Positions 3,535-15,876 of a stretch of 43,180 nucleotides of DNA are shown here, in pieces. The stretch is taken from NCBI GenBank assembly GCA_020148025.1, contig JAHCRH010000006.1:1-43180 (forward strand), given 5' to 3'. The position numbers and the translations under genes were made by a program. A model generated the notes under the pieces. That model did not search any database, was not told the origin of the DNA, and was given only the letters and a program-made list of their open reading frames with translations. The DNA comes from Patescibacteria group bacterium (GTDB lineage: Bacteria > Patescibacteriota > Minisyncoccia > Minisyncoccales > JAHCRE01). Each line of letters begins with the position of its first letter. The stretch's first letter is position 1.

Positions 3535-3780
3535 CTACTCCCAATAAGGTTTTTCTATCTCGTGAACTTTTTCTTTGGTTATTGCTGCGAGGACCTTTTC
3601 CATAACTCCTGTCTCTTCAAATGAGACTCCTTTGCAAGTAAGACCCATTAACGCTGCCACCTTGCAAACACCAAGTTCTGAGAGTTCTCCTCCTTCTTTA
3701 ATGTCTCCATTCGCTTTTACTATTTTTATTAATAATTCTTTTAGTTCAGTCGTATTCTTCACCTCCAAGCAGGAAACCAA
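3535..3780 (-). CDS. Hypothetical small protein (<=81 aa); start codon uncertain
   Basis: ORF with no ATG near the SD GGAGGTGA; candidates are TTG at 3780 or a non-ATG codon just after the SD. Confidence 0.55.
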   Translation of the reverse strand: MVSCLEVKNTTELKELLIKIVKANGDIKEGGELSELGVCKVAALMGLTCKGVSFEETGVMEKVLAAITKEKVHEIEKPYWE

Positions 3781-3891: not shown

Positions 3892-4350
3892 TTATCTATT
3901 CATCACTGCTTTTGCTTGACTTTGTTTCCTTTTTCTGGCTTTCTGACGGATAGCTATCTTAAATAGTTGGGAAAGTGTGTAGATTATATATGATGGGTAG
4001 TCTCCGCTAGCACGCATTTCGTTTAGCCGTTTTTCAAACTCTTCGGTGGGAAGATTGTTTTTTTCATGCAATCTTCTAAGGCCTGTTATTATCCTTTTGG
4101 ATTCGTTTTCTAATATTTCTGGTATCTTTCCTGGTTCTACCTTGAATCCAAGATGGAACTTATCTATCTCGTCTTCGGATGCTGGCTGTTCAAAGCCAGA
4201 GCCATACTCTGCAATCCATAAATCTTGCCTTTCTTTTTCCGCGATTAGTGCTTTTCTCCTAACCACTGCCACCTCAAGTTCAGGAATTAAGAAGCTAGAA
4301 GGAACTTCTAAGAGAAACACAGAGCCTCTATAATTTTCTTCTTTTTGCAT
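3892..4350 (-). CDS. Hypothetical protein (152 aa)
   Basis: ATG at 4350 with SD-like GGTGAG; consensus promoter upstream. Confidence 0.7.
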   Translation of the reverse strand: MQKEENYRGSVFLLEVPSSFLIPELEVAVVRRKALIAEKERQDLWIAEYGSGFEQPASEDEIDKFHLGFKVEPGKIPEILENESKRIITGLRRLHEKNNLPTEEFEKRLNEMRASGDYPSYIIYTLSQLFKIAIRQKARKRKQSQAKAVMNR

Positions 4351-9141: not shown

Positions 9142-9810
9142 TTAAGAGAGAGAAAGAATATGGCTCGGTTTCTCATCTGGTCGTCTAAATGTAAGGCTAA
9201 TTACCAGAGAATCAGGATTATCCCAGGCATGGATGAACCAAGTCGCTTCTAATACCCGTTTAAACGGCTCGGGTAGGTTGTCAATGCTAAAGAGTTTTGT
9301 TCCTCTTTTGTCTTTGAAAGTCTCTTGTCCCGGGTTTACAAAGTAGGCTTTAACGTTGAATTTTTCCATTGCTCGTTTTCTAGGACGGGAACGCCCTGCT
9401 TCAGTTACTCTTTGTCTAATTCTTAGGAAAACTTTCTTTATTCCTCTTTGTTTTGCAATTTCTACCAGGTTTTGAAGAGTCTCTGTTCCCGAAACCGAGG
9501 TACTTCTATTAAGAATTAAGGGCATTCCTATGGCTTCGATTTTTCCCTTATCCACGGTTCGGAAATTAAGAGTACTCCCTGCTCCTGTTCGTAGTGCTAT
9601 CTGTGTTTTTTTGATCTGAGATCTCATCTTGCTCTCTTCTACTGATTTATCTCTGATCAAGGGTACGCCTAACTCCTGAAGTTCCTTAGGGAAACGCTTG
9701 TTCGTAAATGTTATAGCAAGGATCAATGCCTTCGTTTTCGGAATCGGGACAATAATTTCTTTCCCTCTCTTATTTGTGTTTGTTGGCGAAAGCCTTAGGC
9801 ATTCTACCAA
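9142..9810 (-). CDS. Hypothetical protein (222 aa), TTG start
   Basis: SD GGGGAGGAGG 9 nt before in-frame TTG at 9810; nearby ATGs are out of frame and terminate quickly. Confidence 0.65.
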   Translation of the reverse strand: MVECLRLSPTNTNKRGKEIIVPIPKTKALILAITFTNKRFPKELQELGVPLIRDKSVEESKMRSQIKKTQIALRTGAGSTLNFRTVDKGKIEAIGMPLILNRSTSVSGTETLQNLVEIAKQRGIKKVFLRIRQRVTEAGRSRPRKRAMEKFNVKAYFVNPGQETFKDKRGTKLFSIDNLPEPFKRVLEATWFIHAWDNPDSLVISLTFRRPDEKPSHILSLS

Positions 9811-14144: not shown

Positions 14145-14783
14145 ATGTATCCCAAGGCTATTCAAAAACTGATTGATATATTCTCTAAATTTCCGACCGT
14201 TGGGCCGAGAACAGCTACCCGGTTTGTTTTTTATTTGATGAAAACCAAAAAAGAAGAAATTGAAGATTTAATAAAATCAATAACCAATCTAAAAAAAAGA
14301 GTTAAAATTTGTCCTTTTTGTTTCAATCCCTTCGAGGGCGAGGACAATCTTTGTAAAATCTGTTCTGATTCCTCAGGGGATAAAACTTTACTTTGCATCG
14401 TTGAAAAAGAAACTGATTTAACTTCAATCGAAAAGACAAAAAAATATAAGGGTCTTTATTTTATCTTGGGTGGAACCGTTTCGAAATTAAAAAAACAAGA
14501 TTTAAAAAAACTCAAAATTAAAGAATTAACCGAGCGAATTAAAAATCCTCAAAAATTTGGCATTTCCGATGCTAAATTCAAGGAAATTATCATTGCCACT
14601 AATCCAACTACTGAAGGCGAAGCCACAGCTTTATATTTAGAAAGAATTTTAAAACCCTTAACTTGTGGTGAGCCTGCCGAACCAATAAAAATCACCCGGC
14701 TTGGCCGAGGATTACCAGTTGGTGCTGAACTAGAATATGCTGATAAGGAGACTCTAGGATCGGCCTTAGAAGGAAGAAAATAA
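14145..14783 (+). CDS. recR: Recombination protein RecR
   Basis: MYPKAIQKLIDIFSKFPTVGPRTATRFVFYL...CPFCFNPFEGEDNLCKICSD...YFILGGTVSKL. Confidence 0.93.
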   Translation: MYPKAIQKLIDIFSKFPTVGPRTATRFVFYLMKTKKEEIEDLIKSITNLKKRVKICPFCFNPFEGEDNLCKICSDSSGDKTLLCIVEKETDLTSIEKTKKYKGLYFILGGTVSKLKKQDLKKLKIKELTERIKNPQKFGISDAKFKEIIIATNPTTEGEATALYLERILKPLTCGEPAEPIKITRLGRGLPVGAELEYADKETLGSALEGRK

Positions 14784-14784
14784 A

Positions 14785-14900
14785 AAGTGCCTCGATGTCG
14801 GGTTTAGTATTGAACTCATTGGAATAAGTCAAATAATTTTATCTAGGTCTCAAGTGAATCTACTTTAGACACAACACCCGACGATCGAGGCTTTTTGTTT
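14785..14900. terminator. Large bidirectional hairpin (~15-bp stem)
   Basis: GCCTCGAT-GTCGGGT...ACCCGAC-G-ATCGAGGC flanked by A/T runs, between recR (+) and the minus-strand ncRNA candidate. Confidence 0.75.
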
Positions 14901-15300
14901 CCCGAAGGAAGAGACCTGTCCGAATACTAAAGCAGGCTAACCAAACTCTTCTTAGCCTCCTCGGACTTCACCAAGTAGAGTTCGATCGCGGGACTGGATC
15001 TACCAGGATCTACCAGTTTGATGATTATCCCTCACCTACCTCGAGTAAAGTTTCGGGACCTTTCCTTCAGGATTTCTCCTCACACCCTTATCCGAGGCCT
15101 CCACCAGGGGATCTGGATTGCGGAGGTATCTCCAAGGGGGAGATAGGACAATCCAGATCAGATCAGGTGACTTAGTGAGCCTCTGCTTATGGCCCTCAGC
15201 TTCGGGATTAGTAAGGAGAGGACTATCCTGAATTATTGATTATTTTCAGAACAATTCTCTCCTTACTATTTAATTTTCAACGAACTCTTTTTTACTCTCG
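14785..15300 (-). ncRNA. Candidate large structured non-coding RNA (~500 nt), family not recognised
   Basis: Consensus promoter (TTGACA at 15328-15333, TATAAT at 15306-15311), boxA-like GAGTTCGTTGAAAATTAAA, no sizeable minus-strand ORF, multiple perfect long stems (e.g. GTAAGGAGAG/CTCTCCTTAC, GATCTGGATTG/CAATCCAGATC), 3' terminator-like hairpin. Confidence 0.7.
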
Positions 15301-15305
15301 TCTCC

Positions 15306-15333
15306 ATTATAACAAGTCCACAAAATTTGTCAA
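15306..15333 (-). promoter_or_regulatory. Promoter TTGACA-16-TATAAT for the ncRNA candidate
   Basis: TTGACAAATTTTGTGGACTTGTTATAATGG on the minus strand. Confidence 0.8.
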
Positions 15334-15348
15334 GACCCATGTAATGGA

Positions 15349-15372
15349 ATAGTCCGAGAACATTTCTCGGAC
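15349..15372 (-). terminator. AGTCCGAGAA/TTCTCGGACT hairpin
   Basis: Perfect inverted repeat on the minus strand upstream of the ncRNA promoter; weak T-tract. Confidence 0.55.
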
Positions 15373-15397
15373 TGTTTGGTTTTGATAGCAAGAGTAG

Positions 15398-15449
15398 TGA
15401 GGGGAGAAGTGGAATAAGGTGCCAATGGCGAATGGTCCCTTCTCCCCTC
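15398..15449 (-). other. Long hairpin GAGGGGAGAAG...CTTCTCCCCTC downstream of CDS 15535-15876
   Basis: 11-bp perfect inverted repeat. Confidence 0.7.
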
Positions 15450-15487
15450 TTCGGGTCAAAGACTCACCCCTATTATTTGGGCCACCT

Positions 15488-15534: not shown

Positions 15535-15876
15535 TTAGCTGTTGGAAACGAGAAGTTTGCAATCGCCGAAGAAAGTGCATAGCAACATATAGGTGCCCAT
15601 ACACTCTTCAATAGAGATTTCCTTTCTTCCTTGTTCTTTCCAGAGATTCTTTACCGCGTCTGCAAATACGTGATTATCCGCATCCTTTTCTGTAGAAGCA
15701 ACGGTTACAGAAAGGTGTGTTAGGCCCAACTTCTTCATCTTTTCCAGAAGACTAGCAGGTGTGTAAGCGGCTTCCAGTTTGTGTATCCAATACCAGAACT
15801 GTCTGTCACTGATTCCAACGGCTTCACAAAAGCCTTTATTGCGAGGATCTATTTGATCTAGCACAATCATTTTCAT
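15535..15876 (-). CDS. Hypothetical protein (113 aa)
   Basis: ATG preceded by GGAGGTGAGCAAGC; same leader and 3' hairpin as the genes at 3535-3780/3892-4350. Confidence 0.7.
   Translation of the reverse strand: MKMIVLDQIDPRNKGFCEAVGISDRQFWYWIHKLEAAYTPASLLEKMKKLGLTHLSVTVASTEKDADNHVFADAVKNLWKEQGRKEISIEECMGTYMLLCTFFGDCKLLVSNS

Follow-up and report, generated by a model that had tools for sequence, protein, structure and literature searches.

The minus strand of positions 15299-14785 in the window, i.e., the whole 43,180-nucleotide stretch of DNA analysed here, probably carries a real non-coding RNA (ncRNA) of ~500 nt that lies outside all known families. We regard the element as a probable new, lineage-restricted structured ncRNA, and as a predicted transcript. 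In the reading that we prefer, and to which we give a probability of roughly 55%, it would be a stand-alone RNA restricted to one family of small-genome, probably CPR, bacteria, with antitermination through boxA and a leader hairpin (P1), a 3' end shared with recR and an action in trans. The element has a defined anatomy, keeps its synteny in a relative, is conserved at both ends, covaries in one internal helix (P3) and carries a leader that belongs to a module shared with mRNAs. Throughout, G000 denotes the genome of the window itself, G001 a genome of the same genus, and G002 one of a sister genus in the same family.

15306..15333, minus strand: promoter TTGACA-16-TATAAT with an extended TG, a 12/12 sigma-70 match (TTGACAAATTTTGTAGGCTTGCTATAAT in G002)
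15274..15286, minus strand: boxA-like AGTTCGTTGAAAA, similar to the pre-23S boxA of G002 and to those in nearby mRNA leaders
15209..15268, minus strand: P1, a long two-part leader hairpin with an AUUGU/AUAGU inner stem, near-invariant in G002 and recovered by the model R3 described below
15194..15199, minus strand: P3 5' strand CUGAGG, an anchored helix with four double-compensatory changes relative to G002
15092..15097, minus strand: P3 3' strand CCUCGG, the partner of CUGAGG
15062..15071, minus strand: P4 5' strand CCUGAAGGAA, a tentative long-range helix in the MFE fold, with a one-sided U-G to C-G change in G002
14901..14910, minus strand: P4 3' strand UUCCUUCGGG, or a local cUUCGg hairpin
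14892..14900, minus strand: invariant A-rich linker AAACAAAAA, which on the plus strand is the T-tract after the recR terminator hairpin
14850..14864, minus strand: invariant 15-mer AGUAGAUUCACUUGA, identical in G002
14789..14891, minus strand: 3' domain with the closing stem GCCUCGAU/AUCGAGGC and GUCGGGU/ACCCGAC, a probable bidirectional terminator shared with recR

An earlier note, made from the letters alone, had described a promoter, a boxA, many stems and no substantial ORF in this region, and this observation is confirmed as real. The longest frames within the transcript comprise 22-23 amino acids, as expected from the claimed lack of a substantial minus-strand ORF at ~15299-14785, and direct reading of the minus strand recovered all of the listed long perfect stems as written. 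The note's interpretation, an undescribed RNA, stands insofar as the region belongs to no Rfam family, shares its leader with other genes, has a syntenic homologue and shows covariation in P3, but several of the internal stems were not validated.

A leader shared with neighbouring genes

Transcription of the RNA is predicted to start at ~15299 on the minus strand. In G000 the promoter+boxA pattern has six occurrences, of which the window contains four (reversed control, 0), and the match at 15277-15333 gives the RNA the promoter/boxA spacing of the module. The same pattern found six sites in G002, at least one of which is apparently spurious, and missed the homologue's own boxA. The boxA located immediately upstream of the 23S rRNA in G002, AAAAAGAGTTCATTGAAAAATAAATA, is of the same kind as AGTTCGTTGAAAA. 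Most promoter+boxA leaders also carry the two-part hairpin. R3, a covariance model built from eight mRNA leader hairpins with the 15299-14785 RNA excluded, ranked the window's five boxA leaders (4401, 3805, 15265, 15928 and 9915) as its top five matches there; 4401 and 9915 were part of the training set, and the other three lay outside the model. The RNA's own match (15265-15212, E = 7e-4, correct strand) identifies P1 as a two-part hairpin of this type; the next match was P1 on the opposite strand (E = 0.6). Since R3 recovered P1 without training on the RNA, the sharing of the leader with neighbouring mRNAs holds under an independent test. Together with the promoter+boxA pattern, this recovery bears out the earlier proposal of a leader common to the RNA and the neighbouring orphan genes.

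The RNA uses a shared promoter, boxA and hairpin module that resembles rrn and nut antitermination sites. Because NusB is encoded in G000, G001 and G002, and because boxA in CRISPR transcripts and the LoaP system offer precedents (see below), boxA and P1 may together constitute an antitermination site. Our verdict is that the leader seemingly behaves like that of an rRNA-type boxA transcript, and that the RNA belongs to none of the Rfam families.

Small orphan genes are arranged in units of their own in the window (4484-3460 and 16007-15490) and at the loci L081, L090, L091, L098 and L100. Their layout consists of a promoter, boxA, a G-rich leader (ATGGGGAAGGA), the two-part hairpin, an ORF, a C-rich tail complementary to the G-rich leader and a 3' hairpin (CTCTTTTTTCGAGCCCA..GAAAAAGGAG), and the units are sometimes in tandem. 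The leader-tail pairing was stronger than that of most random windows from the same unit in all ten units tested (0 to 27 of 300 windows as strong), and recalls, by analogy, the processing stems flanking rRNAs. No significant Pfam or PHROGs match was found for the ORFs at 15535-15876, 3535-3780, 3892-4350 and 9142-9810 (all on the minus strand). Two more strong inverted repeats, at 15347-15377 and 15398-15450, lie between the upstream orphan gene and the promoter of the RNA.

The RNA and the neighbouring coding units have leaders of one class, the body of the RNA is strongly diverged, and the locus varies between relatives. Such features would fit a degenerate orphan-gene cassette, in which the promoter, boxA and hairpin are left over from a coding unit that has no ORF any more and the transcript is functionless. 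We nevertheless consider this unlikely. Neither the pairing of a G-rich leader with a C-rich tail nor the 3' hairpin of the coding units is present in the RNA sequence, and decay does not account for the P3 covariation, the high GC content, the near-invariance of P1 across genera and the conservation of both ends.

A syntenic homologue and the distribution of the RNA

Among 60 genomes searched, only G002 besides G000 gave matches, which comprised pieces from the start, middle and end of the RNA; their order is kept, and they too are located between recR and rplU. The promoter, boxA, P1, UCCCGAAGC, UGAGGAGA..GAAGGAAA, UUCGGGAAACAAAAAGCCUCGAU and AGUAGAUUCACUUGA are conserved between the two genomes, and the centre, P3 aside, is otherwise diverged. 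An ORF comparison found no long reading frame conserved between the RNA and its homologue. The search in related genomes proposed by the earlier note has thus yielded one syntenic homologue with covariation in P3 and without a conserved long ORF, but has left the centre unconfirmed. The P1 loop of G002 contains an insertion of ~170 nt, around which P1 is intact. This insertion carries a dispersed hairpin-rich repeat (L006 5520-5706 and L013 1117-1205) that is also intergenic on contig C4 of G000, with 83% identity over 93 nt.

The RNA is absent from G001, in which a small orphan-gene cassette is all that the recR locus holds. Models of the 5' end (R1, 247 genomes of the order) and the 3' end (R2, the same genomes and, as the only model used there, 384 genomes of the class) gave no convincing third copy. 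Scanning the surroundings of recR for motifs in 28 further relatives detected no such RNA, blastn with the RNA gave no match in phages, and scans of IMG/VR for P1 patterns returned either nothing or two matches without the rest of the element.

Several candidates were rejected. Weak R1 matches in G125, G050 and G088 are not copies of the RNA: L080 (in G050) has a boxA and hairpin leader with a different body, L081, located at recR, consists of coding cassettes, and L079 appears to be a chance match. An R2 match in G586 is an ordinary terminator. Exact 18-mer matches, 22 in genome contigs across unrelated phyla and one in IMG/VR, were taken as chance; their R2 scores are circular, because the matches were selected by part of the R2 model. 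The unit in G050 (L080 1680-1300, minus strand) is an observation in its own right, in which the promoter, boxA and hairpin leader is followed by ~150 nt, a terminator-like hairpin and then an open frame; the unit might represent an attenuator or a further untranslated RNA.

Folding and internal helices

The whole RNA folds with an MFE of -180.6 kcal/mol vs -143.9 +/- 6.0 for dinucleotide shuffles (z = -6.1), and none of 100 shuffles was as good. Most of this signal comes from the two end hairpins, P1 and the terminal stem; without them the centre has a z of -2.1, against a mean of -0.8 (sd 1.9) for background windows of the genome, and is only mildly unusual for this genome. The centre of the G002 homologue has a z of -4.6. 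Two separate perfect stems of at least 10 bp are present in the RNA, and any such stem occurred in 10 of 500 mononucleotide shuffles. The central 319 nt have a GC content of 50.2% vs 35.5% for the window, the sole one of 809 sliding windows to reach 50.2%.

The internal helix P3 is CUGAGG/CCUCGG in the window and CCAUUCC/GGAAUGG in G002, with GAAG as its 5' anchor and AU as its 3' anchor. Six pairs are shared in this two-sequence comparison: four differ in both bases, one differs in a single base and one is unchanged; the chance of anchored P3-like runs was 0.002 and 0.001. Two homologues are too few for covariation statistics of R-scape grade. P4 (CCYGAAGGAA/UUCCUUCGGG) can form in both homologues and has a rival local fold, UUCC(UUCG)GGAA. 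No clear counterpart of the stems GATCTGGATTG/CAATCCAGATC, GTCCGA/TCGGAC or ACTGG/CCAGT is seen in the G002 homologue, and a Sankoff-type structural alignment of the central ~150 nt of the window RNA with G002 was not above shuffles (z ~0.8), leaving the internal stems of the earlier note unconfirmed there.

The P4 block also bears on whether the transcript is a short-peptide mRNA or a dual-function RNA. A 15-codon frame (GTG at 15083, VRRNPEGKVPKLYSR) can be aligned with one of 17 codons in G002 (MRRPEGKRFPTPLQIGN); the start codons align, the indel is of three bases, and all remaining changes within the aligned codons are synonymous (blastp E = 0.004 over 9 aa). Nevertheless, the two are alike only within the P4 anchor block, the tails of the peptides diverge and a Shine-Dalgarno sequence at a normal spacing is missing, which makes a coding role very unlikely.

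The 3' domain and recR

The convergent gene recR ends at 14783. The inner stem of the 3' domain is GUCGGGU/ACCCGAC in the window and GUCGGAU/AUCCGAC in G002, with one compensatory change from G-C to A-U. On the plus strand, in the direction of recR, the 3' stem is followed by TTTTTGTTT. The domain is thus probably a bidirectional terminator for two convergent transcripts, and the terminal hairpin probably doubles as the recR terminator, a use that might account for some of the 3' conservation even if the RNA had no function. Within the window, complementary targets for AGUAGAUUCACUUGA did not exceed the level of chance.

These features raise the possibility that the arrangement serves recR, with the 3' block terminating recR and the opposing transcript tuning it by interference. 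The RNA does run head-on into recR, and the stem with its trailing TTTTTGTTT is the best-conserved 3' block. We regard this explanation as doubtful, since it accounts for neither the conserved boxA nor P1 nor P3, which lie 200-500 nt away, and G001 has a simple short terminator at that place.

Known RNA families

The Rfam scan proposed by the earlier note (Rfam 15, 4227 families) gave no match in the region when gathering scores were applied; among matches up to E = 10, the best were miRNA-type hairpins due to chance and, well short of the cut-off, a ylbH-like match located upstream. RNase P RNA is located elsewhere in the genome (G000:C4:17455-17822, E = 4e-28, below gathering score), as is tmRNA (G000:C7:5511-5867), in agreement with the note's view that the element is neither.

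A highly divergent universal RNA, chiefly SRP RNA, deserves mention because, in a search of G000-G019, RF00169 was unmatched in four genomes and RF01854 in all 20, G000 included; in this order, SRP RNA may have diverged beyond the reach of the Rfam models. The SRP RNA models also gave no match in the region. Such an identity is scarcely credible for the present RNA: no SRP domain IV motif was seen in it, no Rfam family exceeded chance at E up to 10, and the element is missing from a genome of the same genus and from almost the whole order, which is implausible for an SRP RNA.

A proposed mechanism

In the preferred reading of a stand-alone, family-restricted ncRNA, a strong promoter would start transcription at ~15299, and the nascent boxA and P1 hairpin would recruit an antitermination complex of the NusB/S10 type. 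The boxA-modified polymerase could then complete a long, untranslated, hairpin-rich transcript, which would end at the terminator shared with the convergent recR. The finished RNA would comprise the 5' P1, the P3 arm, a variable centre, the conserved A-rich linker and the conserved 15-mer, and would most likely act in trans, in a regulatory or scaffold role. From the features of the locus we infer its transcription, the antitermination and any function in trans. The number of homologues (two only), the lack of the RNA in G001 and a centre not above shuffles are evidence against this reading.

A more ambitious and improbable extension is that the RNA represents a new class of large ncRNA within a regulon of rRNA-like units. 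The unit would be a promoter, boxA and AUUGU/AUAGY hairpin on the RNA and the orphan mRNAs alike, and the RNA would control or titrate a factor recognising the shared leader hairpin.

Comparison with known systems

We found nothing relevant on ncRNAs of CPR/Patescibacteria in the literature searched. OLE, ROOL and GOLLD are RNAs of hundreds of nt with extensive structure and poorly understood function (PMC12286853). The window RNA is likewise hundreds of nt long and extensively structured, but Rfam matches it to none of the three, its distribution is far narrower, and it is not known to have an oligomeric architecture.

In the nut sites of lambda, a leader hairpin adjoins boxA, as it does in the window RNA. 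LoaP antitermination requires a leader hairpin (PMC12691694), and the likeness to the LoaP/dfn leader is such a hairpin, which in the LoaP case is the recruitment site of the antiterminator. The window hairpin differs from both in sequence and size, has no known cognate protein and is known from sequence alone. The shared leader names a hairpin and a set of genes worth studying.

A parallel in layout is offered by rRNA operons and some CRISPR arrays, whose long untranslated RNAs likewise have a boxA in the leader; in a tested case boxA raised the output of long untranslated CRISPR transcripts ~tenfold (PMC7862264). The boxA of the window RNA is like that of the G002 pre-23S, but is followed by an mRNA-type two-part hairpin, and the RNA codes for neither rRNA nor repeats. 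A family-specific 500-nt RNA and a set of orphan genes with a common leader would suggest a standard high-output unit modelled on rRNA operons.
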